Source of the DNA: Spirochaetaceae bacterium
GTDB lineage: Bacteria > Spirochaetota > Spirochaetia > DSM-27196 > PWMO01
Direction: 5' to 3'
DNA length: 40,543 bases
Assembly (NCBI GenBank): GCA_007693325.1
Contig: REDW01000114.1
Coordinates: forward strand, 1-40,543
The notes beneath the pieces were generated by a model. The model searched no databases, was not told where the DNA came from, and saw nothing but the letters and a program-made list of their open reading frames with translations. The position numbers and the translations under genes are program-made. Positions 19,417 to 32,289 of the stretch are shown one piece after another; the first letter of the stretch is position 1; the number at the start of each line of letters is the position of its first letter.

Positions 19417-19469
19417 CGCGTATTGCAGCTTTCCAGCGTCCATGATACCGTTTGCGCTACTCGATGCCC

Positions 19470-20024
19470 ATGAACTACTATGTCATTCAGGTGCGCACCG
19501 GCGAAGAAGAACAGTTCCTGCGTCGTGTACGCCCCTCGATCAACCAGGATACCGTACGCATCCTGTGGCCGCGGCGGCGGCTGTCGATTCGCCGCAGGGG
19601 CCGCACGCAACAGGTCATGGCGCCGATTTTCCCCGGATACGTCTTTGCCGAGAGCCGGCAGATTGATGCCGAGCTCTACTGGGCCATTCGCCGGGCCGAC
19701 GGTTTCTTGCGCTTTCTGCCCGACAACCACGACGTGCGGCCGCTGGTTGCCGCAGATCGCAAGCTGCTGCTGCATTTTCTCTCGTTTGGAGAGGTGGTCG
19801 AGAAGTCGACGGTCAGTTTCAGCGAGGATGCTCGCATTCATGTTCTCGAAGGACCGCTCAAGGGGCTGGAAGGACGGATTGTCAAAGTTGACCGACGCAA
19901 GGGGCGTGCCAAAGTGAAGCTGGATCTCTACAACGAGTCCTTCCTGGTGGACTTTGGATTTCAGTCGATGCAGCCGGTTGCCGACATCTCGAACTCGGCC
20001 TCAAGAGCGCGTAGCACATCATGA
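19470..20024 (+). CDS. loaP: NusG-paralogue transcription antiterminator, LoaP-like (184 aa)
   Basis: Specialised NusG-family elongation factor. The NGN domain (about 1-100) opens with YYVIQVRTGEEEQF and contains PIFPGYVFAE, the RNA polymerase-binding surface. The C-terminal KOW domain (about 118-165) contains HVLEGPLKGLEGRIVKVDRR. It is not housekeeping NusG, since it lies outside a secE-nusG-rpl cluster and begins a biosynthetic operon. The RTGEEE start is like LoaP proteins, which are known from Firmicutes, Actinobacteria and spirochaetes and keep polymerase processive through long polysaccharide or secondary-metabolite operons. The start could be TTG 19452, ATG 19464 or ATG 19470; the last fits the NGN strand. 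Its stop overlaps the next gene in ATGA. The predicted target is its own six-gene operon. UpxY/RfaH-type is the alternative. Confidence 0.82.
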   Translation: MNYYVIQVRTGEEEQFLRRVRPSINQDTVRILWPRRRLSIRRRGRTQQVMAPIFPGYVFAESRQIDAELYWAIRRADGFLRFLPDNHDVRPLVAADRKLLLHFLSFGEVVEKSTVSFSEDARIHVLEGPLKGLEGRIVKVDRRKGRAKVKLDLYNESFLVDFGFQSMQPVADISNSASRARSTS

Positions 20025-21499
20025 CCGCACAGCGAGACAGACGTATCTATGTCATCGGCGCCGGTTTTGCCGGGGTCTCAATCGCCAAAGAGATTCGCAG
20101 CAAGGGCATCTTTGGTGAGGTTGCGGCGTTCCTCGACGACGATCCGGGCAAGATCGGGACCCGTATCGATGGTATTCCGGTGCTCGGTCCGATAGCCGAT
20201 GTGGTTGGGCTTATCAAGAAACGCCCGACCGATGAGGCACTGATCGCCATCCCGGGCGCTTCGCGCGACAAACTGCGCCGGCTGCACGAGCGGCTGGAGC
20301 AGGCCGAATTCACCAGGATTCGAATCCTGCCCGGTATTTCGCAGATTATCGACGGCAACGCTCACCTGATTCAGACCCGCGAGATGGACCCGCAGGACCT
20401 GCTGGGACGCAATCCAATTCAGATCGGCCTGAAGGAGAGCCTGACCTACCTGCGCGGACGCCGTGTGCTGGTTACCGGCGCCGGCGGCAGCATCGGCAGC
20501 GAAATGTGCCGGCAGCTGCTCTCCGGCGGCGCCCAGCGGCTCTACCTCTTTGGACACGGAGAAAACTCGATCTTCGAAATCGATCGTGAACTGCGCATCC
20601 TGCAGGAAGAAGGCGTTGGCGAACGCGCCACCATTGTGCCGGTAATCGGAGAGTTGCAGGATCGTGATTACATGCGCTTCATTCTGGCGCGTTTGCGCGC
20701 CGATGTGGTGTTTCACACCGCGGCGTACAAGCACGTGCCGATGCTGGAAGCCAACCCGGTGGGCGCGGTTACCAACAACGTGTTCGGCACACGCAACCTG
20801 GTGGAAGCAGCGCGCGCGGCCGGAACCGAACGGCTGGTATTCATCTCAACCGATAAGGTAGTTGACCCGGTGGGGATTTACGCCGCGAGCAAGATGCTCG
20901 CCGAGCAGATCGTGCGCCTGGGAGACGGAAATCAGCTGGCGTGCATCGCGGTTCGCTTCGGCAACGTGCTCGGGTCGCGCGGCAGCATCATTCCGATTTT
21001 TCGCAAGCAGATTGCCAAGGGCGGTCCGGTGACCGTCACCAGTCCCAACGCCACGCGCTTCTTCATGACTATCCCGGAGGCCGCATCGCTGGTACTCAAG
21101 GCCGGTGGAGGTGGAACCGGCGGACACCTCTACGCACTGGATATGGGAGATCCGGTCTCAATCCGTGAACTGGCCGAACAGATGATCCGGTTCTACGGTT
21201 ACGAGCCGGGCCGCGACATCAAACTGCAGTACGTCGGCCTGCGGCCGGGAGAGAAGCTCGCAGAGTCGCTGACCTCTGCTGCTGAGCTGACCAGCCCAAC
21301 CGATTTTCCGCGCATTCACCGCATCTGCGGCACTCAGCCGGACGCGGCGGCGCTCGAGTCTACGCTGGCCGAGCTGGAGAAGGTCTGTTTTCTCGATCCG
21401 GCTCACCGTTCGTGGTACCGCAACCGCAGAAAGCTGCGCCAGATCCTTGCGGACCACATCCCCGGTATAGGTGCTCCCGATGACGAACCGGAGTTCTGA
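20021..21499 (+). CDS. Nucleotide-sugar 4,6-dehydratase, CapD/PglF-type lacking membrane helices (492 aa)
   Basis: Short-chain dehydrogenase acting on a UDP-sugar, most likely UDP-GlcNAc 4,6-dehydration to a 4-keto sugar. An N-terminal Rossmann/CoA-binding-like domain has GAGFAG (13-18). The catalytic domain has TGAGGSIG (152-159), STDK at 276-279, and Tyr287-x3-Lys291. PglF-type enzymes often carry Met in the Tyr position, so this one resembles FlaA1/PseB there. Unlike PglF/CapD it has no four-helix membrane domain at the N terminus, so it should be soluble. It overlaps the NusG paralogue by 4 bases and the aminotransferase by about 20. The pair suggests synthesis of an amino-sugar (for example a bacillosamine-type precursor). 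No acetyltransferase or glycosyltransferase is in the window. Confidence 0.88.
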   Translation: MTAQRDRRIYVIGAGFAGVSIAKEIRSKGIFGEVAAFLDDDPGKIGTRIDGIPVLGPIADVVGLIKKRPTDEALIAIPGASRDKLRRLHERLEQAEFTRIRILPGISQIIDGNAHLIQTREMDPQDLLGRNPIQIGLKESLTYLRGRRVLVTGAGGSIGSEMCRQLLSGGAQRLYLFGHGENSIFEIDRELRILQEEGVGERATIVPVIGELQDRDYMRFILARLRADVVFHTAAYKHVPMLEANPVGAVTNNVFGTRNLVEAARAAGTERLVFISTDKVVDPVGIYAASKMLAEQIVRLGDGNQLACIAVRFGNVLGSRGSIIPIFRKQIAKGGPVTVTSPNATRFFMTIPEAASLVLKAGGGGTGGHLYALDMGDPVSIRELAEQMIRFYGYEPGRDIKLQYVGLRPGEKLAESLTSAAELTSPTDFPRIHRICGTQPDAAALESTLAELEKVCFLDPAHRSWYRNRRKLRQILADHIPGIGAPDDEPEF

Positions 21500-22676
21500 C
21501 TTCATCCCCTTTGCGCGCCCCTGCCTGGGCGACGCCGAGGAACAGGCCGTGCTGCGCGTGATGCGCAGCGGCTGGTTGACCACCGGCGGCGAATGCGCGG
21601 CCTTCGAGCGCGAATTCGCCGCCGCAGCGGCCACCGAATACGCGCTTGCGGTCAGCTCGGCAACTGCCGGCCTGCACCTGGCGCTTGAAGCGCTCGGAAT
21701 CGACGCCGGCGACCGCGTTGCCATGAGTCCCTATACGTTCACCGCCACCGCAGAGGTGGTCCGCTACCTGGGGGCCGATCCGCTGTTTGTCGATATCGAC
21801 CCGTCAACCCTGACGATCTCGCCCCAGGCACTGCGCGCGGTACTCGAACAGAGCGCTGCGAGCAAACATCCGGTACGTGCAATCATCGCGGTACACATCG
21901 GCGGCCATCGCTGCGACATGGATGCCATTCTGGCGCTGGCACATGAACACGGCGCAGTGGTTGTTGAAGACGCGGCGCACTGTGTGCCGCATCTGACCTC
22001 CGGGGTACACGTCGGTACCGAGGGCACAATCGGGGTCTACTCGTTCTACGCCACCAAACCGATCACCACCGGTGAAGGCGGCATGCTGGTTACCAATGAC
22101 CGGGCTCTGGCAGACCGCGTGCGCATCATGCGTCTGCACGGCATAGACCGCGACGTCTGGAACCGCTACCGCAGCACTACGCCGTCGTGGCAGTATGACG
22201 TTGTTGCCGCGGGCTTCAAGTACAACCTGCCCGACCTGCAGGCGGCAATCGGCAGAGTGCAGTTGGCGCGTGCGCCGCAGTTGCTGCAGCAGCGGGCGCA
22301 GATTGCCGCGCAGTATCGGTCCGCACTTCAGGACCTGCGCGAGATTGTCCTGCCGCCACAGGCGCCGAGTCACAGCCATCATCTGTTCATCATCCGCCTC
22401 AGGCAGGGCCTGCTGGCTATTGAGCGCACCGAATTCATTGCGCAGTTGGGCAGATACGGTATCGGCGCCTCGGTGCACTACCGGCCGCTGCATCTGATGA
22501 GCTACTATCGTGAACGCTACGGCTTGCAGCCCGAGGATTTTCCGCTATCATTGGAGGCGTATCGCAGCGCGGTCAGTCTGCCGCTCTACGCCGAACTCAG
22601 CAGCCAACAGATCGAGCGCGTCTGCGGCTCGGTTCGGGCCGTCTGCGATCAGCACCGCGTGGCGGAATCGAGGTAA
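21480..22676 (+). CDS. DegT/DnrJ/EryC1/StrS-family nucleotide-sugar aminotransferase (398 aa)
   Basis: PLP-dependent transfer of an amino group to a keto-sugar nucleotide, presumably the product of the preceding dehydratase. SSATAGLHLAL binds phosphate and VVEDAAH (Asp164) contacts the PLP nitrogen. Lys193 in YATKPITTGEGG forms the internal aldimine. FKYNLPDLQAAIG and SVHYRPLHLM are also typical. AGGTG lies 6 bases before the ATG at 21480; an in-frame GTG at 21471 is possible. The gene overlaps its predecessor and ends 2 bases before the xanthine-dehydrogenase-like large subunit. This suggests, but does not prove, a common pathway. Confidence 0.92.
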   Translation: MTNRSSDFIPFARPCLGDAEEQAVLRVMRSGWLTTGGECAAFEREFAAAAATEYALAVSSATAGLHLALEALGIDAGDRVAMSPYTFTATAEVVRYLGADPLFVDIDPSTLTISPQALRAVLEQSAASKHPVRAIIAVHIGGHRCDMDAILALAHEHGAVVVEDAAHCVPHLTSGVHVGTEGTIGVYSFYATKPITTGEGGMLVTNDRALADRVRIMRLHGIDRDVWNRYRSTTPSWQYDVVAAGFKYNLPDLQAAIGRVQLARAPQLLQQRAQIAAQYRSALQDLREIVLPPQAPSHSHHLFIIRLRQGLLAIERTEFIAQLGRYGIGASVHYRPLHLMSYYRERYGLQPEDFPLSLEAYRSAVSLPLYAELSSQQIERVCGSVRAVCDQHRVAESR

Positions 22677-22678
22677 CC

Positions 22679-24796
22679 ATGGCGTCAGCGCTATCGCTGC
22701 GTAACACGCTCAAGGGCAAATCGCTGTTTCTCACCGACATGTTTGCACCCAATATGCTCTACGGCCTCACAATTCGCAGCGAGCATCCCCACGCACGCAT
22801 CATTGAAACCCACCTGCCCGACCTCCCGCGTGATGTCACCTATCTGCGCGCCGCAGACATACCGGGAGTCAACTACGTCGATGTGATGGGCGACGTTGCG
22901 CCGATTCTTGCTGAGCGCGAAACGTTCTACGTTGGCGAGCCGATCGGGCTTCTGGTTGGACCATCGCCGGCGCGCCTGCTCGAGATCTCGCGTATGATCC
23001 AGATAAGCTACGAAATCCAGCAGGCCGCTGTTGAACTGGACGATCTCGAGCACGCAACCATCGTACTGGAACGCAGCACCAGGCGGGGCAACATCGAAAA
23101 AGCGCTGCGCGGCTCAAGCCAGTTGGTCCAGGCGAGCTATCGTACCGGCGTTCAGGATCATCTCTACAGCGAAGCGGTTGGGGCATACGCGGTTTCCGGC
23201 GCCGCTGATTCAGTTACGGTTTTCTCACCCAGCCAGTGGCCACATCACGTGCGCAGCACCGTAGCTGCGGCTCTCGATCTGCCGCCGGAGGCGTGCCGGG
23301 TTCGATCAACCGAAATCGGCGTGTCACTCGATGGGAAGCTGTGGTATCCGTCGGTGGTGGCCGCACAGGCCGCACTGGCTTCTCTACACACCGGCAAGCC
23401 GGTGAAGCTGGTCTACACCCGTGAAGAGGATTTCCGCTTCAGTCCCAAGGGGCTCAGCGTTCTGGTTGAATGCACCACCGGCCTGGACGAAAACGGCAAT
23501 CTCAGCGCGGCCGACATACTCGCCACGGTTAACCTCGGAGCCTACCCGCTGTTTGTCGATGAGATCGTCACCAGAGTGGCAACCTCACTGGTATCTCACT
23601 ACCGTTGTGAAGCCTCGCGACTCTGCATCCGTGCGCTGCGTACCAACCTGCCACCGCTGAACGCCTGTGGAGGGCTCGGCACTTCGCACGGTGCGTTTGC
23701 GGTTGAGACTCACGTTTCGCGCTTGAGCGAGCTCAGCCAGACCTCACCGTTCGAATGGAAGAAGATCAACCTCTTACGCCGCGGGCAGGCCCCGCTGATC
23801 GGGGCGCCGCTGGCATCCGATTGCGATCACCACGATCTGCTCGGTCACGCCGCGGGTGCCAGCGACTACCAGCGCAAATACGCCGCTTTCGAACTGCAGA
23901 AGAAGCGCCGCGAGACGTTCAGCGACATGCTCGATCCACCGCGGGGTATCGGTATAGCCTTTGCCCACCAGGCGTCGGGTTTCAGCGGACGCTCTGAGGA
24001 GCTGGTGGGCTCTTCGATCCGGGTGCGTATTGAGAAAGACGGCAGCGCTGAGTTGCTCTGCGGCGCGGTCTCGGAAAGCGAAACGATCCGCGGTATCTGG
24101 AAAGACAATCTGTCCTCGGTGCTCAATGTCGCTGACGCGCATATTCGCTTCGCAGCCGCCGATACCGCGGTTTCCACCGACTGCGGTCCGACGGTGCTAT
24201 CGCGTAACATTGTTGTTATTCAGCGCACTATAGAGAGCGCCTGCAATGCCATCAAGCGGCAGAGATTCCGCGCGCCGCTGCCGCTGGAAGTCAGGCGGTC
24301 GTTTCGCCCGCCGCGCTCTGTTGACTGGAACGCCCGCGAGCTCAGCGGACAACCGCACGCGGTCCTGTCGTACGCTGCGGCGGTGGTTGAGGTTGAGGTG
24401 AATCCGATGACCTACCAGCCGTCGGTTCGCGGTGTCTGGCTGTCCGTAGACGCCGGCCGCATTCTGCATCGTGACGAGGCAACGCGGGTACTGGAGCGCG
24501 GGGTGTACGCCGCGCTTGCCTGGGCCGGCACCGAGGAGATCCTCTTTGCCAACGGCGGACTGGGCCGCAGCGATTACCACCACTACCAGCATTCGCGACT
24601 GGCAACCGTTGCTCCGGTGCATATTGATTTTCTGGGCGATAGCGAGAAGGCTCCCGCCAAGGGCCTGGGCGATCTTCCGATGGCCGTTATTCCGGCTGCC
24701 TTCGCCCTGGCGGTAACGCAGGCCACCGGACGGTATATCGACACTATCCCCTGCACCGCCGAGACTCTGCGCACCTACCTGGAGGAGGACCAATGA
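22679..24796 (+). CDS. Xanthine dehydrogenase-family large subunit with degenerate molybdenum site (705 aa)
   Basis: The overall fold follows the molybdopterin-binding subunit: LKGKSLFLTD (11-20), YVGEPIGLLVG (84-94), GVQDHLYSEAVGAYAV (157-172, with Glu165), TNLPP (322-326), and a C-terminal KGLGD. Key sites differ from active enzymes. The Gly-rich GGGFGGKE is replaced by IGVSLDGKLW (213-222). The FRGFGGPQ substrate-arginine segment reads ACGGLGTSHG, with Gly331 at the Arg position. The MGQG cofactor-glutamine segment reads CGAVSESETI (461-470). The catalytic Glu of VGEP is Asp665. It may bind a different cofactor or substrate, or be structural. It starts 2 bases after the aminotransferase and overlaps the 2Fe-2S gene by 4 bases. 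Confidence 0.82.
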   Translation: MASALSLRNTLKGKSLFLTDMFAPNMLYGLTIRSEHPHARIIETHLPDLPRDVTYLRAADIPGVNYVDVMGDVAPILAERETFYVGEPIGLLVGPSPARLLEISRMIQISYEIQQAAVELDDLEHATIVLERSTRRGNIEKALRGSSQLVQASYRTGVQDHLYSEAVGAYAVSGAADSVTVFSPSQWPHHVRSTVAAALDLPPEACRVRSTEIGVSLDGKLWYPSVVAAQAALASLHTGKPVKLVYTREEDFRFSPKGLSVLVECTTGLDENGNLSAADILATVNLGAYPLFVDEIVTRVATSLVSHYRCEASRLCIRALRTNLPPLNACGGLGTSHGAFAVETHVSRLSELSQTSPFEWKKINLLRRGQAPLIGAPLASDCDHHDLLGHAAGASDYQRKYAAFELQKKRRETFSDMLDPPRGIGIAFAHQASGFSGRSEELVGSSIRVRIEKDGSAELLCGAVSESETIRGIWKDNLSSVLNVADAHIRFAAADTAVSTDCGPTVLSRNIVVIQRTIESACNAIKRQRFRAPLPLEVRRSFRPPRSVDWNARELSGQPHAVLSYAAAVVEVEVNPMTYQPSVRGVWLSVDAGRILHRDEATRVLERGVYAALAWAGTEEILFANGGLGRSDYHHYQHSRLATVAPVHIDFLGDSEKAPAKGLGDLPMAVIPAAFALAVTQATGRYIDTIPCTAETLRTYLEEDQ

Positions 24797-25278
24797 GAGT
24801 CTCGTTCTTACTCAACGGTGACAAGACAACGCTCAACGTCCAACCCAATACGCGCCTGATTGAGGTTCTGCGCAAGGATCTGGCGCTGACCGGCGCCCGC
24901 CCCGGATGCCTCTACGGCACCTGTGGTTTCTGCGCAATTCTGCTCGACGGCGAATTGTCACTGTCGTGCATGATACCGGCATTCCGTGTCAACAACTGTG
25001 TAGTGACCACCATCGAGGGGTTCATGGAGACACGCGATTTCCGTGATATCGAGATTGGCTTCCACCGCGCCGGGTCGGTGCCGTGCAAGTTTTGCGCCTC
25101 CGCCAAGGTATTGACAACTCACTGGGCGATCACCAGTCACCCTACACCCGACAGTGACACCCTCAATCGCGCGGTCAATGCGGTACAGTGCCGCTGCACC
25201 AGTTACGCCAGATTCAGCAATGCGATCCGCTATTCCGCCGAAGTGCGAAGGAAACGCCTGCATGGCCGCAAGCGATAA
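24793..25278 (+). CDS. Xanthine dehydrogenase-family [2Fe-2S] subunit (161 aa)
   Basis: Electron-transfer subunit with two [2Fe-2S] clusters. The ferredoxin-type N-terminal cluster has Cys39-x4-Cys44-x2-Cys47-x11-Cys59 (GCLYGTCGFC...LSC). The helical second domain keeps its four cysteines: Cys98-x2-Cys101 and Cys133-x-Cys135 (VQCRCTSY). The usual QCGFCTPG around the second cluster, whose Gln touches the molybdopterin in active enzymes, is changed to VPCKFCASA, and CRCTGY to CRCTSY. So the cluster ligands are intact while cofactor-facing residues differ, in step with the altered large subunit. It overlaps the large-subunit gene by 4 bases and the FAD-subunit gene by 17. Electrons probably pass between the FAD protein and the large subunit. 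Confidence 0.88.
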   Translation: MRVSFLLNGDKTTLNVQPNTRLIEVLRKDLALTGARPGCLYGTCGFCAILLDGELSLSCMIPAFRVNNCVVTTIEGFMETRDFRDIEIGFHRAGSVPCKFCASAKVLTTHWAITSHPTPDSDTLNRAVNAVQCRCTSYARFSNAIRYSAEVRRKRLHGRKR

Positions 25279-26134
25279 GCGTACCCACGTCTACCTGCCC
25301 GAGACCCTGCCCGAGCTGCTGCAGCTCTATCGGCGCAAGCCGCTGGCCTCGATCTACGCCGGCGGCACCGACCTGCTGCGGGGCGTGACCAAGGCGGAGT
25401 TTGCGCTGCCGACTGAAGTGATATCGCTGCAGGAGATCGAGGAACTGCACCGCATATCGCGCACTGAACGCTATCTGGAGATCGGCGCTGCAGCCACGGT
25501 AGCGCGGATACTACAGATCGGTTCCAATATACTGCCCCCGGCGTTCTACGCGGCGCTGCACTCGATCGGTCCACCGGGACTCTTCTCGCTGGCTACGCTG
25601 GGCGGCAATATCTGCAGCGTAGACCATGTCTACTCGATAGCCCCTCTGTTAAGCATCATGGACGTGCGCTACGAAGTGCGGCGCCAGGGCCATACCCGTT
25701 GGGTACCCGCCAGCCGGTTTCGTGACGCCAACGGTGCACCTGCGCTCGCCGAAGGCGAGATCCTTACCCGCATCCGCTTGCCGCTGGAGCACTGGAACGT
25801 GCAGGTGTTTCGGCAACTGGGAACAATCCACCTGGAAAGCACCTCACCGCTTATCTTCTGTGCGCTGGGCAAGACCACCAAGGCGGTACTGGATGACTTT
25901 CGCCTCACGTTCTGCGGCAGCAGCCCGATCCTGTATCGCAACCGCGAACTGGAAGCCGAACTGGTGGGGCGCAAGCTGCCGTTGCCGGCGCGAGAGATCG
26001 ACGCTTTTCTGCACGGCGTGAGCCAGGGCATCGAGCGCACCGAAATGCCGCTGACCCCGCTGCAGTTGCACCGCGCCACCGGTTTGACGCGCGTGCTGCT
26101 GGCGCGCATGGGCCAGCCCGATTCGATCGACTAG
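25262..26134 (+). CDS. Xanthine dehydrogenase-family FAD-binding subunit (290 aa)
   Basis: CoxM/XdhB-type FAD-binding (PCMH-fold) subunit. The FAD motifs are clear: YAGGTDLL (residues 32-39) and LATLGGNICS (110-119), followed by the C-terminal domain (about 175-280) typical of the family. It would accept electrons from the 2Fe-2S subunit or deliver them to NAD or another acceptor. The ATG at 25262 is preceded by AAGGA and is 17 bases inside the previous gene; a longer in-frame ORF inside that gene (from 25154) lacks family sequence. With the two previous genes it completes a three-subunit complex in the order large, Fe-S, FAD. It is the last gene before a new promoter serving dnaE. Confidence 0.9.
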   Translation: MAASDKRTHVYLPETLPELLQLYRRKPLASIYAGGTDLLRGVTKAEFALPTEVISLQEIEELHRISRTERYLEIGAAATVARILQIGSNILPPAFYAALHSIGPPGLFSLATLGGNICSVDHVYSIAPLLSIMDVRYEVRRQGHTRWVPASRFRDANGAPALAEGEILTRIRLPLEHWNVQVFRQLGTIHLESTSPLIFCALGKTTKAVLDDFRLTFCGSSPILYRNRELEAELVGRKLPLPAREIDAFLHGVSQGIERTEMPLTPLQLHRATGLTRVLLARMGQPDSID

Positions 26135-26213: not shown

Positions 26214-29200
26214 GTGGCAGATTTTGCGCACCTCCATACGCATTCCGATTACAGCCTCCTGAAGGGCGCCGCCCCGGTTGCAGCGCTGGTCAGCCGCGCC
26301 CGGGAGCTGGGGATGAAGCACCTCGCGCTGACCGATGACGGTAATATGTTCGGCGCACTGGAGTTCTACAATCAGTGCAGGGACAACGGCATAAACCCGA
26401 TTGTGGGAATGGACGCCTACGTAGCGGCAAAGTCACGCACAATTCGCTCCAGCCACGACTCGGAGAACCGCGTTGATCGCCTTGTGTTGCTGGCAACCAA
26501 CCGGCAGGGGTACAAGAACCTGATAAAACTCAGTTCCGCCGGCTACACCGAAGGGTTCTACTACAAGCCGCGTATCGATCATGAGCTGCTGAGCCGTCAC
26601 AATCAGGGACTGATTGCCCTCAGCGGAACGCTGTCCGGTGAGGTGCCGCGCCTGCTGCGGCAGAATCGCTTTGAAGACGCCTGCAGTGCAGCGCTGCGCT
26701 ACCGCGATCTGTTTGGCGACCAGGGCTTCTTCCTCGAGCTTCAGGACCATGGCCTTCCCGAGCAACGGATTGTGAACCAGGGGTTGCTGCAACTGTCGCA
26801 GCAGACCGGTATTGCGCTGGTGGCCACCAACGACGTTCACTACGTGAAGCAAGCCGATGCAAACGCTCAGGATATCCTGATGTGCATCGGCACCAACAAG
26901 AAGAAGCATGACACCAACCGCTTCCGCTTCTCTTCTGACCAGTTCTACCTCAAGAGCGCTGAAGAAATGGAGCAGTTGTTTGCCCAGCTGCCGCACGCGA
27001 TCGAGAACAGCCTCGTCATAGCCGAGCGCTGCCGCCTCGAGATCGATCAGCCCGGGCCACGGTTTCCCGACTACCAGATTCCGCATCGGTTTGCCTCCCC
27101 GGACGACTACCTCAGGCATCTGGCCCGCTCCGGCATCCAGGCACGTTACCGCGATGTCAGCCAGGAAATAGCCGCGCGCACCGATTACGAGCTGCAGACC
27201 ATCATCGACATGGGCTTCACCGGTTACTTCCTGATCGTCTGGGACTTCATCAAGTTTGCCCGGGACAACGGCATTCCGGTAGGACCGGGCCGCGGCTCGG
27301 GCGCCGGCTCCATAGTTGCCTACGCGCTGGGCATCACCGATATCGATCCGCTGAAATACGGACTGCTGTTCGAACGTTTCCTCAACCCGGACCGTGTATC
27401 GATGCCGGATTTTGACATTGACTTCTGTTACGAGCGCCGTGGTGAAGTCATCGAATACGTGCACCAGAAATACGGCGCTGACCGTGTTGGGCAGATCATC
27501 ACATTCGGCACGCTCAAAGCCAAGGCGGTGATCCGCGATGTGGCACGCGTGCTTGACATCCCTTACGCTGAAGCCGATGCAATTGCCAAACTGGTTCCCG
27601 CCGGACCGAAGGTCGATCTAAGCGAGGCAATCGAGGGCGAAGCCGAGCTGCTGGCGCTGCGCCGGCGCGGCGGTGTCCACAGCGAACTACTGGAGGTCAG
27701 TCTCAAGCTCGAGGGGTTGCACCGTCACGCCTCAACTCACGCGGCCGGAATTGTCATCGGGCAACAGGAGCTGACCGAATACGTTCCCCTCTACCGCGAC
27801 CCCAAGACCGGCTCAATTTCAACCCAGTACACTATGGATCAGCTGGAGGACTGCGGTCTGGTCAAGATGGACTTCCTGGGCCTCAAGACGCTGACTCTGA
27901 TCGAGCACACCGCCGAGCTGGTGCGTAACGCGGGTATCGAACTGGATATGAACGCCGTTGCCGAGGATGACCCGGCGACGTTTGCTCTACTGGGCGAGGG
28001 CAAGAGCACCGCGGTGTTCCAATTCGAGAGTTCCGGCATGCAGAGCATCCTGGCAAAAGCTAAACCAGAGCGAATAGAGGACCTGATTGCGCTGAACGCT
28101 CTCTATCGGCCGGGTCCGATGGAAAACATCGACCAGTTTGTAGACTCCAAGAACGGCCGCATGCCGCTGCGTTATCCGCTTCCCGAACTGGAAGCGGTGC
28201 TGAAAGAGACCTACGGCGTGATTGTGTACCAGGAACAGGTAATGGAGATCGTCCGCATTGTCGGCGGGTTCTCGCTCGGTCAGGCCGATATTCTGCGGCG
28301 CGCGATGGGCAAGAAGAAAGAGTCCGAGATGGAGCAAATGAAGCAGCAGTTCATCGCAGGGGCGGTCGAACGTGGCTTCAGTGAGGCACAGGCTGAAAAC
28401 ATCTTCACGCTGCTGAAGCCGTTTGCCGGTTACGGATTCAACAAGTCTCACGCTGCCGCGTATTCGGTACTGGCGTATAAGACCGCCTATCTCAAGGCCA
28501 ACTACCCGGTGCCGTTCATGGCCGCCAACCTCACCAACGAAATCAACAATCCCAAGAACTTCGCCTGGTACATGGAAGAAGCCCGTTCTATGGGGATAGC
28601 TATCAAGCCGCCGGACGTCAATCTCAGCCAGAAGTACTTCTCGGTGCTGGACAACCAGATCATCTACGGTCTGATCGGCATCAAGAACGTGGGTTCGGCA
28701 GCGGTCGATGAGATGATCCGCGAACGCGGCCGGCACGGTGCGTTCAGCTCTTTTGAGGATTTCCTGGAACGCGTTGACCTCAAGACTGTCAACCGCAAGG
28801 TGGTTGAGGTGCTGATCCAGTCGGGAGCGTTTGACAGCCTTGATCCGCGCCGCGCAACGCTGTTTCACAACCTCGCCCGCTGCCTCGACATCGCCGCCGA
28901 TACCAGGCAACGCCGACTTACCGGTCAGGTGTCGCTGTTTGACCGGGACGATCACGCGCTGGCGTCGGTACTTGAAGAGGTGCCCGAATGGGAAACCGTA
29001 GAACGGTTGAACTACGAGAAGGACAACCTCGGTTTCTACTTTTCCGGCAATCCGCTGGATGACTACCGCAACATCTGGCAGCGTACCGTAACGCTCAATC
29101 TGGGCGACCCCAGCCAGGCGATCATCGACAGAAAGTACAATCTGCTGGGGCTGCTCAAGGCGCTGCGCGTAGTTCAGACCAGAAGCGGTGGTACAATGGC

Positions 29201-29624
29201 GTTTGCCATGATAGAAGACTACAACGGTTCGATGGAAGTTGTGTTCTTTGGTGACGCCTGGGAGCAGTGCAAAGAGCGGCTGCAGGAAAACAGCGTTGTG
29301 GCAATGATCGGCAAGCTCGAGTACCGTAAGCAGAAGCTCCAGATCGTTGTTCAGGAGCTGCGCGAGCCGCACGAGCTCGATGAAACCGATAGCGGTGAGG
29401 TCCATATTCGCCTCGACCAGCAACTCGAGGACTCCGAAGCGCTGATGCAGCTGCGCGCTTTTCTCTACGAACACGCCGGACACTGCCCGGTCTTTCTGCA
29501 TATTGGACACAACGGTGATGAGGCGGTGATTAGAGCTTCGGCCCAGTTGACCGTTTCATCGCGCAGCGAGGTACTGGAAGATATTCGCCGCTATCCGCAC
29601 GTGCGCGAAGTGTGGAAACAGTAG
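26214..29624 (+). CDS. dnaE: DNA polymerase III alpha subunit (1136 aa)
   Basis: Catalytic subunit of the replicative DNA polymerase. The N-terminal PHP domain opens with HLHTHSDYSLLKGA. The polymerase palm has PDFDID with catalytic Asp399 and Asp401. The third acidic residue is in VKMDFLGLKTLT. GPGRGSGAGSIVAYAL and FNKSHAAAYSVLAY are typical DnaE fingers motifs. The C terminus contains an OB-fold region (about 960-1060). The size is that of DnaE1-type enzymes. The start codon is GTG with only an AAGAGA-like ribosome site. It is followed after 10 bases by the YggT gene. Confidence 0.97.
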   Translation: MADFAHLHTHSDYSLLKGAAPVAALVSRARELGMKHLALTDDGNMFGALEFYNQCRDNGINPIVGMDAYVAAKSRTIRSSHDSENRVDRLVLLATNRQGYKNLIKLSSAGYTEGFYYKPRIDHELLSRHNQGLIALSGTLSGEVPRLLRQNRFEDACSAALRYRDLFGDQGFFLELQDHGLPEQRIVNQGLLQLSQQTGIALVATNDVHYVKQADANAQDILMCIGTNKKKHDTNRFRFSSDQFYLKSAEEMEQLFAQLPHAIENSLVIAERCRLEIDQPGPRFPDYQIPHRFASPDDYLRHLARSGIQARYRDVSQEIAARTDYELQTIIDMGFTGYFLIVWDFIKFARDNGIPVGPGRGSGAGSIVAYALGITDIDPLKYGLLFERFLNPDRVSMPDFDIDFCYERRGEVIEYVHQKYGADRVGQIITFGTLKAKAVIRDVARVLDIPYAEADAIAKLVPAGPKVDLSEAIEGEAELLALRRRGGVHSELLEVSLKLEGLHRHASTHAAGIVIGQQELTEYVPLYRDPKTGSISTQYTMDQLEDCGLVKMDFLGLKTLTLIEHTAELVRNAGIELDMNAVAEDDPATFALLGEGKSTAVFQFESSGMQSILAKAKPERIEDLIALNALYRPGPMENIDQFVDSKNGRMPLRYPLPELEAVLKETYGVIVYQEQVMEIVRIVGGFSLGQADILRRAMGKKKESEMEQMKQQFIAGAVERGFSEAQAENIFTLLKPFAGYGFNKSHAAAYSVLAYKTAYLKANYPVPFMAANLTNEINNPKNFAWYMEEARSMGIAIKPPDVNLSQKYFSVLDNQIIYGLIGIKNVGSAAVDEMIRERGRHGAFSSFEDFLERVDLKTVNRKVVEVLIQSGAFDSLDPRRATLFHNLARCLDIAADTRQRRLTGQVSLFDRDDHALASVLEEVPEWETVERLNYEKDNLGFYFSGNPLDDYRNIWQRTVTLNLGDPSQAIIDRKYNLLGLLKALRVVQTRSGGTMAFAMIEDYNGSMEVVFFGDAWEQCKERLQENSVVAMIGKLEYRKQKLQIVVQELREPHELDETDSGEVHIRLDQQLEDSEALMQLRAFLYEHAGHCPVFLHIGHNGDEAVIRASAQLTVSSRSEVLEDIRRYPHVREVWKQ

Positions 29625-29634
29625 GAGGCTTGAA

Positions 29635-30222
29635 ATGCTACAGTCGGTCATGCGCTTTGTCAGCGCACTCATCTCGATCTACATGCTCATTCTGCTGGTG
29701 CGGATCATAATGACGTGGTTTCAGACCTCATCGTACGGCCGCACGAGCGTCTATCTGCAGCGGTTAACTGATCCGTATCTCAACTTCTTCCGCCGCTTCC
29801 GCTTTATGCAGGTTGGCTACGTGGATTTTTCGCCGGTTCTGGCGCTGGTATCGCTTTCCATCCTGGCTGACATTGCCAATTCGATTGCCTTTGCCGGAAG
29901 AATCACGCTGGGGTTTGTCCTGGCGCGCCTGCTGGCCTCCCTGTGGTCCGCGGCGTCGTTCTTCTTCACGCTGTTCCTGATCATTGCCCTGGTGCGTCTG
30001 GTGGCAATGATGCTCAATATCAACAGCGCCGGGCGTCTGTGGATCACGCTGGATCGTATCCTGCAGCCGATGGCGCACGGGCTGGTGCGGCGTTTGGCGC
30101 GCGGAGACACAACGTACCAGCACGCGCTGATGCTCTTTGGTGCCGTTGTGCTGATCGGGCTGCTGGTCGGTAATCTGCTGATCGCACGCCTTGTTGCACT
30201 ACTGATCGAGCTGCCGTTCTAG
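29635..30222 (+). CDS. YggT-family integral membrane protein, two repeats (195 aa)
   Basis: YggT-fold membrane protein with an internal duplication. Residues about 1-85 and 95-190 each comprise a hydrophobic helix, an amphipathic stretch with a Trp/Phe and Pro motif (RLTDPYLNFFRRF and TLDRILQPMAHG), and a second hydrophobic helix. Family members occur near cell-division or osmotic-stress genes, but the molecular role is not established. AGGAGG precedes the ATG by 6 bases. It lies between dnaE and recG with small gaps (10 and 15 bases), so it is probably transcribed with them. Confidence 0.85.
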   Translation: MLQSVMRFVSALISIYMLILLVRIIMTWFQTSSYGRTSVYLQRLTDPYLNFFRRFRFMQVGYVDFSPVLALVSLSILADIANSIAFAGRITLGFVLARLLASLWSAASFFFTLFLIIALVRLVAMMLNINSAGRLWITLDRILQPMAHGLVRRLARGDTTYQHALMLFGAVVLIGLLVGNLLIARLVALLIELPF

Positions 30223-30237
30223 GCGGTAGCAGCGCAG

Positions 30238-32289
30238 ATGTTTCTCGCCGAGCTCGACCAGTCGGTCCAGAAGCTGAAGGGCGTGGGACCTGCCGCCGCG
30301 CGCGCCATGAATCGGCTGGGCATTGGCACCCAGCGCGACCTGCTGCTGCATCTGCCGCGAGCCTACGAAGACCGGGTTACCCCGGTAACCATTGCCGAGT
30401 CATTAGCCGGAATTGCGTGTAATACCGTTGCCGAGGTAATTGCTCACGACTATATCGGAGCCGGCCCACAGAAGACCCTTAAGGTCTACGTACGAGATAA
30501 TAGCGCAACCGGCGCGCTGGCCTGTTTTGGCCGCAACTTCCTTGCCTCGCGCCTGCGCCCCGGGGCAAGAATCCGCCTGGCGGCGCAGTTCGCCTACCGT
30601 TATGGCGAGCCGCAAACCTCAGCCTTTGAGTTTGAACCTGCCGATGGCCCGCAACAGCTGTTCGGCCGCATCCTGGCGGTCTACCCCTTAAGCGAAGGGT
30701 TGTCGCAGGCGCTACTGCGCTCTGCGCTGCAGCAGGCGCTGCACGCCTCGGCCCGGCACCTGGAGGATGCGCTACCTGCGGATCTGCGCGGTAGACGCGG
30801 AATGCCGAACATCGCTGCGACGCTGCAGCAGATCCACCAACCGGACACACTGGCGCAGGCCGAAGCGGCACGGCGCGCGCTGGCGTACGAAGAGCTCTTC
30901 ATGCTGCAACTGCGCCTGCGCAGCCGCGTACTGGCGGGCAGTCGGACTACGCGCCCCGCGCGCCTGCTCCCGCAGACACTGCAACAGCGCGCCACCGCCG
31001 GTCTGCCGTTTCAACTGACCGCCGACCAGCAGACCGTCCTGCAGGAGATCCGCGCCGACATGCAGTCCGGGCGGCCGATGGCGCGCCTGCTGCAGGGAGA
31101 GGTTGGTTCGGGCAAGACGCTGGTAGCGTTTGTGTCGGCACTGGCGCCGATTGAAGCCGGCGGCCAGGCGGTGCTGATGGCCCCGACGGAACTGCTGGCG
31201 CGCCAGCACGCCGAGAACGCCGCCGGGCTGCTGCAGCCGCTGGGAGTTCGCGTTGTGCTGCTGACCGGTTCGGTGCCGTTGCGGGCACGCACGCCGCTGC
31301 TGGAGGCCGTAGCTGCCGGAGAGGCAGACCTGGTGGTTGGTACGCACGCGGTGTTCAGTGAGTCAACACGATTTCACGATCTGCGCTACGTCATTGTCGA
31401 TGAACAGCATCGCTTCGGAGTGGTACAGCGTGCCGCGGTGCTGCACAAAGGGCACAACCCCGACCTGCTGCTGATGACTGCAACCCCGATACCGCGTACG
31501 CTGGCGTTGACCCTCTTCGGCGATATGGAAACCTCCACAATCCGCAACCTGCCGCCGGGCCGTAAGCCAATCCAGACACATCTCGCGCGTATGTCCAACG
31601 AGCAAAAGGTGTACGCCCATGTCCGCGGTGAGCTGGAGGCCGGTCGACAGGCGTACTTCGTCTATCCACTGATTGATCCCAACGACCGTTCCGAACTGCG
31701 CAACGCTGAGACGATGTTTGAACGGTTGCGCGATCAGGTGTTTGCCAATTTTTCGGTTGGACTGGTGCACTCGCGTGTTCCGGACGCGGAGAAACGCCAG
31801 CGCATGGCGGCGTTTCAAGCCAACCAGCTGCAGGTACTGGTTGCCACCAGCGTGATAGAGGTTGGAGTCGATGTTCCCAACGCCAGCTGCATGGTGGTCG
31901 AACACGCCGAGCGTTTTGGACTGGCGGCGCTGCACCAGCTGCGCGGCCGCGTCGGACGTTCTGACCTGCAATCGTGGGCCTTCTTTGTCTACGCCGATGA
32001 CTTGAGCGAGGAGGCCAAGCAGCGCCTGCGCATCCTGCATCAGACCGGCGACGGCTTCGCGATTGCCGAGGAAGACCTGCGGATCCGCGGACCGGGCGAC
32101 CTCGCCGGCCTGCGCCAGTCGGGCTTTCTGCGTCTCCACGCGGCCGATCTGAACCGCGACGGCGACCTGCTGGAACAGGCACGTTCGGACGCCGCTGAGC
32201 TCTGCAGCGATGACGCCGATCTGTTGCAGCACCCCGGGTTGCAACGCGCCTTGAACGCCCACGACCGCCTGGAAGAGCTGGCGCTGTGA
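30238..32289 (+). CDS. recG: ATP-dependent DNA helicase RecG (683 aa)
   Basis: Branched-DNA translocase that reverses stalled replication forks and processes Holliday junctions. The N-terminal wedge domain contains LKGVGPAAARAMNRLGIGT, and an OB fold follows (about 60-150). Helicase motifs are complete: Walker A GEVGSGKT at 287-294, the DEQHRFGV Walker B, TATPIPRTLAL (motif III), and ATSVIEVGVDVPNA and HQLRGRVGRS (motifs V and VI). The length is close to other RecG proteins. The ATG is taken because an AGGCGG element lies about 12 bases upstream and the wedge domain begins directly. Its stop is 10 bases before rsmD. Confidence 0.96.
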   Translation: MFLAELDQSVQKLKGVGPAAARAMNRLGIGTQRDLLLHLPRAYEDRVTPVTIAESLAGIACNTVAEVIAHDYIGAGPQKTLKVYVRDNSATGALACFGRNFLASRLRPGARIRLAAQFAYRYGEPQTSAFEFEPADGPQQLFGRILAVYPLSEGLSQALLRSALQQALHASARHLEDALPADLRGRRGMPNIAATLQQIHQPDTLAQAEAARRALAYEELFMLQLRLRSRVLAGSRTTRPARLLPQTLQQRATAGLPFQLTADQQTVLQEIRADMQSGRPMARLLQGEVGSGKTLVAFVSALAPIEAGGQAVLMAPTELLARQHAENAAGLLQPLGVRVVLLTGSVPLRARTPLLEAVAAGEADLVVGTHAVFSESTRFHDLRYVIVDEQHRFGVVQRAAVLHKGHNPDLLLMTATPIPRTLALTLFGDMETSTIRNLPPGRKPIQTHLARMSNEQKVYAHVRGELEAGRQAYFVYPLIDPNDRSELRNAETMFERLRDQVFANFSVGLVHSRVPDAEKRQRMAAFQANQLQVLVATSVIEVGVDVPNASCMVVEHAERFGLAALHQLRGRVGRSDLQSWAFFVYADDLSEEAKQRLRILHQTGDGFAIAEEDLRIRGPGDLAGLRQSGFLRLHAADLNRDGDLLEQARSDAAELCSDDADLLQHPGLQRALNAHDRLEELAL

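Follow-up and report, generated by a model that had tools for sequence, protein, structure and literature searches.

What is a protein of the xanthine dehydrogenase (XDH) family for, once the residues around its molybdenum cofactor (Moco) have been replaced? The question is raised by a gene, here called L, in a stretch of 40,543 nucleotides from a Spirochaetaceae bacterium (contig REDW01000114.1), the whole of which we refer to as the window. An initial annotation had described L as an XDH large subunit that keeps the landmarks of the fold, is altered at four functional sites and has been repurposed rather than left to decay. The features of L that bear on the question are given below, with bovine XDH numbering for the equivalent sites.

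22679..24796, + strand: L, XDH-family large subunit without the Mo site (705 aa, ATG to TGA; assigned by Pfam, alignment and predicted fold)
23237..23239, + strand: Trp187, a clade-specific conserved residue (93% of the clade; mostly Cys in canonical relatives)
23315..23344, + strand: IGVSLDGKLW, residues 213-222, replacing GGGFGGKE
23669..23671, + strand: Gly331 (in ACGGLGTSHG), the equivalent of bovine XDH Arg912 by alignment
24059..24088, + strand: CGAVSESETI, residues 461-470, replacing the GQG loop (bovine Gln1040)
24488..24490, + strand: Val604, the equivalent of bovine Gln1194 by clade alignment
24671..24673, + strand: Asp665 (in KGLGD), the equivalent of the catalytic Glu1261; this loss is not family-wide

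The fold is indeed kept. L matches two Moco-binding domains in Pfam (MoCoBD_1, 6e-47; MoCoBD_2, 2e-23) as well as the hammerhead domain (Ald_Xan_dh_C, 3e-8), and its AlphaFold2 model, made with 29 orthologues (pLDDT 90, pTM 0.91), is matched by Foldseek over its full length to XDH/XO, with TMq values of 0.88 to 1jro_B and 0.89 to 1fiq_C; among solved structures, its closest relatives are XDHs and related Mo hydroxylases. No named XDH equivalog of NCBIfam (pucD, Se_dep_XDH, xdhB or XdhA) reaches its cut-off with L, the top match being TIGR03196 pucD at 192 bits against a cut-off of 784. When L is aligned by phmmer to Rhodobacter capsulatus XDH (1jro_B), IGVSLDGK faces GGGFGGKE, ACGGLG faces AFRGFG (of AFRGFGGPQGA) and AVSESET faces EMGQG (of EMGQGLH), and the replacements first noted at residues 213-222, 331 and 461-470 are present exactly as described. 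Two further losses can be added to that list, namely Leu221, where GGKE has its Glu, and Val604. The Gln of QDHLYSE, equivalent to bovine Gln767, is retained. From the model and the alignments, L is predicted to have an intact XDH fold but lacks the residues needed to bind Moco and to activate it.

The sites were compared in a single alignment of 111 non-redundant clade sequences (<80% identity) and 13 canonical proteins. Four Mo-site residues were scored, the Phe of GGGFGG and the equivalents of Arg912, Gln1040 and Gln1194, and 98 of the 111 clade members keep none of them, 12 keep one and a single sequence keeps two. Retention in the clade is 6, 2, 2 and 3%, respectively, against 92-100% in the canonical set, where the Arg and both Gln are found in 13/13 proteins and the Phe in 12/13; full motifs occur in 12 of these 13, the last, a more distant paralogue, being shifted solely at GGGFGGKE. 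The position of the GGKE Glu is occupied by Leu, Ile or Val in 97/111 clade members and that of the Arg, residue 331, by Ala, Ser, Gly, Ile and others, a variability which, as judged from the alignment, is relaxation at the Mo site inside a constrained fold. The newly conserved residues of the clade include Pro535 (96%) as well as Trp187. Asp665 had originally been counted among the losses: its position was correctly identified, but the frequencies in the clade (Glu 44%, Asp 21%) rule it out as a diagnostic loss, and in the aligned sequences the Glu to Asp change is conservative and no evidence of loss. With this site and the Gln767 equivalent (residue 159; Gln in 49%) each kept in about half of the clade, the pocket has not been wholly erased.

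A conserved clade with the altered residues fixed had been anticipated. In a 91-protein tree that also holds E. coli XdhA and XdhD, a branch with an SH-aLRT of 99 has all 75 clade members to one side of it, and the split between clade and canonical proteins costs 1 change against 15 in shuffles; the tree was made by a quick method and has long branches, so its inner branching order is unreliable. The single clade is thus as anticipated, but fixation in the strict sense is ruled out because the replacing residues vary. One clade member, L123, retains both Mo-site Gln, branches nearest the canonical proteins and is a possible intermediate, and two others, L028 (G023) and L032 (G040), carry an Ala/Glu-rich, low-complexity insertion of about 150-170 residues at the boundary between the hammerhead and first Moco-type domains. 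Orthologues of L are present across the order and class of the window genome, and the 79 loci in the named genome collection all come from spirochaete-named genomes except two labelled only 'bacterium'. Judging by these orthologues, the complex without the Mo site is retained by spirochaetes of most Spirochaetia families; genomes of family f26 (about 1-1.8 Mb), probably the Borreliaceae, gave no clade match.

L does not stand alone in the window, and the two genes that follow it carry the signatures of the remaining XDH cofactors.

24793..25278, + strand: S, [2Fe-2S] small subunit (161 aa, all eight cluster Cys), its start overlapping the stop of L (ATGA)
24907-24909, 24922-24924, 24931-24933 and 24967-24969, + strand: first four Cys codons of S
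25084-25086, 25093-25095, 25189-25191 and 25195-25197, + strand: other four Cys codons of S
25262..26134, + strand: M, FAD subunit (290 aa, PF00941), overlapping the end of S
25358-25369 and 25595-25609, + strand: FAD signatures of M, AGGT and TLGGN

L, S and M adjoin on the same strand in 78 of the 79 non-redundant loci with enough flank. All eight cluster Cys are present in 75 of 106 S proteins and a further 18 miss one Cys of the second cluster, so that at least seven are found in 93/106. In eleven S proteins a cluster lacks at least two of its ligands: the first cluster is affected in G115 and both clusters in G011 and G332, and G046, G049, G312 and G328 are also among the eleven. Among the M proteins, the first FAD loop retains its GxxT in 90/100, and the second loop has the second Gly of its GGN in 100/100. 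Judged by these motifs, the cofactor site under the tightest constraint would be that of the flavin half. In one genome (G345, 93% complete) an intact L (L141) has no adjacent S or M, and an ABC transporter gene lies downstream.

The reading that we favour, with a probability of about 0.72, is that L, S and M form a Mo-free complex, in which L would act as scaffold or as binding subunit, and flavin-based redox chemistry or sensing would fall to M, joined in most species by S. A spare enzyme of the XdhA/PucD type would have lost Mo catalysis in an early spirochaete; the L2S2M2 assembly would have been retained for its other half, in which the FAD of M and, for most lineages, the two [2Fe-2S] clusters of S are still useful; and L, itself no longer a catalyst, would serve as a scaffold that brings a bound partner or ligand to the flavin. 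The sequences themselves show the lost site, the single clade, the common inheritance of the three adjacent genes across the Spirochaetia, the selection on them and the lack of Moco genes in most carriers; the XDH-like hexamer, the occupancy of M by flavin and the role are what we infer from them. Because G115, G011, G332, G046 and others have lost Fe-S ligands yet keep all three genes, the losses suggest that a relay of electrons from Mo to FAD is not the irreducible role, which would instead lie in flavin binding or purely in assembly or sensing.

The same losses lend something to the idea that the complex is silent in catalysis and serves as a structural, regulatory or binding module, a scaffold or sensor to which FAD and Fe-S clusters are irrelevant. 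The S protein of G011, from which nearly all cluster Cys are gone, is still predicted to fold (pLDDT 88.6; TMq 0.84 to the small subunit of CO dehydrogenase (CODH)), the closest folds to its model being Fe-S subunits of CODH and related enzymes, and the L gene of G345 manages without adjacent S and M. We nevertheless hold a silent module to be unlikely, since the near-constancy of both FAD loops and the survival of at least seven Fe-S Cys in most S proteins argue that redox chemistry is retained in most species.

A more specific role might be sought in the genes around the operon.

19452..20024, + strand: LoaP-family antiterminator, the conserved start of the cluster (NCBIfam NF033641, 151.2 bits, cut-off 125)
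20021..21499, + strand: FlaA1/PseB-like NDP-sugar 4,6-dehydratase, conserved upstream neighbour (Pfam PF02719, 2.5e-100)
21471..22676, + strand: DegT/PseC-like sugar aminotransferase, conserved upstream neighbour (Pfam PF01041, 4.5e-114)
26214..29624, + strand: dnaE, downstream neighbour in part of the class (Pfam)

The NCBIfam cut-offs for PseB and PseC themselves are unmet (TIGR03589, 158.6 against 407.8 bits; TIGR03588, 360.5 against 423.5 bits). Most commonly the genes run in the order LoaP, FlaA1-type dehydratase, DegT aminotransferase, L, S and M, and dnaE often comes next; where a non-redundant locus has enough flank, DegT lies nearby in 64/82, FlaA1 in 55/75, LoaP in 36/57 and dnaE in 20/76, all of these counts being lower bounds, as distant homologues can escape and the limit for dnaE is tight. 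Beyond the operon, positions 26214-32286 of the window hold dnaE, yggT and recG, and the adjacency of dnaE and yggT is kept in many relatives. A scan for promoters and terminators gave nothing exceeding chance, and an RNA family scan of the window found a tRNA only.

With LoaP, FlaA1 and DegT as neighbours, gene order indicates that the role of L-S-M is probably related to the envelope or to glycans in most species, though not exclusively, because two genomes, G332 and G292, keep the complex with no FlaA1 or DegT orthologue found at 1e-20. These neighbours are hence not obligatory partners, and strict dependence of L-S-M on FlaA1 and DegT is ruled out. The same two genomes count against a special case of our preferred reading, in which the complex would be a flavin-dependent oxidoreductase of the adjoining aminosugar pathway, whose substrate would be what FlaA1 and DegT produce. 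It would account for the recurrence of the LoaP-FlaA1-DegT-L-S-M order in many families, for FlaA1-DegT-L-S-M in G115 and for the high counts of DegT and FlaA1, and we regard it as rather unlikely.

Whether the carriers make Moco at all was addressed by a search for MoaC and MoeA in 296 genomes of the phylum, with curated models that gave matches in 11 of 14 control genomes. Among 59 genomes with a verified degenerate L, 47 are without MoaC and MoeA, 11 have both and one has MoaC only; by this gene content, most sampled carriers are unable to make Moco via the standard pathway. In three carriers assembled as single contigs and 99% complete (G007, G011 and G052), MoaA, MoaE and XdhC are absent too. 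The expectation that the altered L would occur in genomes without molybdopterin synthesis is therefore correct for most carriers but fails for the window genome itself (3.47 Mb, 97.5% complete), which encodes MoaA, MoaC, MoaE, MoeA and XdhC. It also encodes four further XDH-family proteins with canonical motifs, which its Moco genes presumably serve. As one of the 12 of 59 carriers with MoaC, whose gene content is compatible with Mo binding, it leaves the case for the Mo-free reading to rest on the clade. Elsewhere in the Spirochaetia, canonical XDH-family proteins with full Mo motifs occur in G048 (L047), G041 (L046), G302 (L181) and G303 (L186), in which a Pfam search found neither MoaC nor MoeA, although G048 and G041 do have XdhC; salvage of Moco may exist in the class, or genes may have been missed.

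Such salvage would be needed if L were a divergent but working Mo hydroxylase, with other residues holding a Moco that non-synthesisers scavenge. The retention of Glu or Asp at 665 in 65% of the clade and of Gln at 159 speaks for this, as do the four genomes just named, but the equivalents of Arg912, Gln1040 and Gln1194 survive in 2-3% only and their replacements are unrelated, with none fixed. Moreover, XdhC is missing from the complete carriers, within family f24 a second XDH-family match at 1e-30 is absent from most genomes, and the Fe-S relay that such an enzyme needs has also been lost in several lineages. We consider it quite improbable.

On L, S and M themselves, selection has been maintained. 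Over fourteen close pairs, L has a dN/dS of 0.04-0.20, S of 0-0.10 and M of 0.04-0.16, the neighbouring enzymes having similar or higher values, and the frames of L orthologues are intact throughout; L-S-M is under strong purifying selection, with no decay. Active-site losses by themselves could hint at a decaying pseudogene or an assembly artefact, but the chance of either is negligible, being already contradicted by the intact frames, the dN/dS of L, the conserved operon and the single-contig genomes. An artefact of alignment is excluded, as canonical proteins show the motifs in the same alignment, and one of assembly by the same losses in about 110 non-redundant sequences, single-contig genomes included. 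The proposal of repurposing instead of decay is upheld and extends to the whole three-gene complex. A phage or plasmid origin of L was rejected, the best such matches being merely about 20-27% identical.

Bacterial XDHs of the XdhABC and PucCDE types share with the spirochaete complex the fold and domain order of L, separate genes for the three subunits and the [2Fe-2S] and FAD signatures. They differ in that the spirochaete L is without the equivalents of GGGFGGKE, Arg912, GQG and Gln1194, that most carriers are without Moco synthesis and that the complete ones checked are without XdhC. The contrast can be drawn within one genome: the XdhA-like paralogue L002 (G000 C121:42415-44475), 28% identical to L, has a DSGPTCASR segment in common with the DSGPSTLSRN of the clade but, unlike L, has the full Mo motifs GGGFGGKE, FRGFGAPQ, GQG and KGAGE, and lies across the 99% branch. 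That the XDH family is able to assemble without Moco is evident from Hydrogenophaga CODH, crystallised without Mo-pyranopterin (PDB 1ffu), and in this it resembles the complex proposed here; 1ffu is, however, an apo form with its Mo site intact, whereas in the spirochaete complex the site itself is gone.

Because the Mo-binding site is gone, the standard XDH annotation of the complex is very probably wrong, and the complex would have to do something else. The open-access literature holds homology annotations only and no description of a Mo-free spirochaete XDH-like complex; most subscription journals lay outside this scope, and a prior description is possible. If the reading is true, the complex would be among the few documented examples in which a whole multi-subunit redox enzyme has lost its catalytic metal site and yet is kept throughout a bacterial class. 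The graded loss, of Mo residues almost always, of Fe-S ligands sometimes and of flavin loops nearly never, makes the use of an XDH scaffold without Mo testable, and the conserved three-gene unit lends itself to deletion. A probably wrong XDH annotation would be removed from many spirochaete genomes, very probably including that of Treponema pallidum.

The last point concerns G115, a single contig of 1,139,633 bases which carries L (L153), S and M and in which the curated models found neither MoaC nor MoeA. It belongs to f24, probably the Treponemataceae, and is itself very probably T. pallidum, in line with the published order and annotation of TPASS_0079 and TPASS_0081 (PMC4403809). We put forward only tentatively, at somewhat less than even odds, the fuller proposal that a former Mo enzyme became, class-wide, a Mo-free flavin-based redox or sensing machine, whose role mattered enough for it to survive genome reduction in this probable T. 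pallidum, even with the loss of one Fe-S cluster. TPASS_0079 and TPASS_0081, both annotated 'Xanthine dehydrogenase' (PMC4403809), most likely correspond to L and M of the L153 locus; the label was given by homology only, whereas the L gene here falls in the Mo-free clade.
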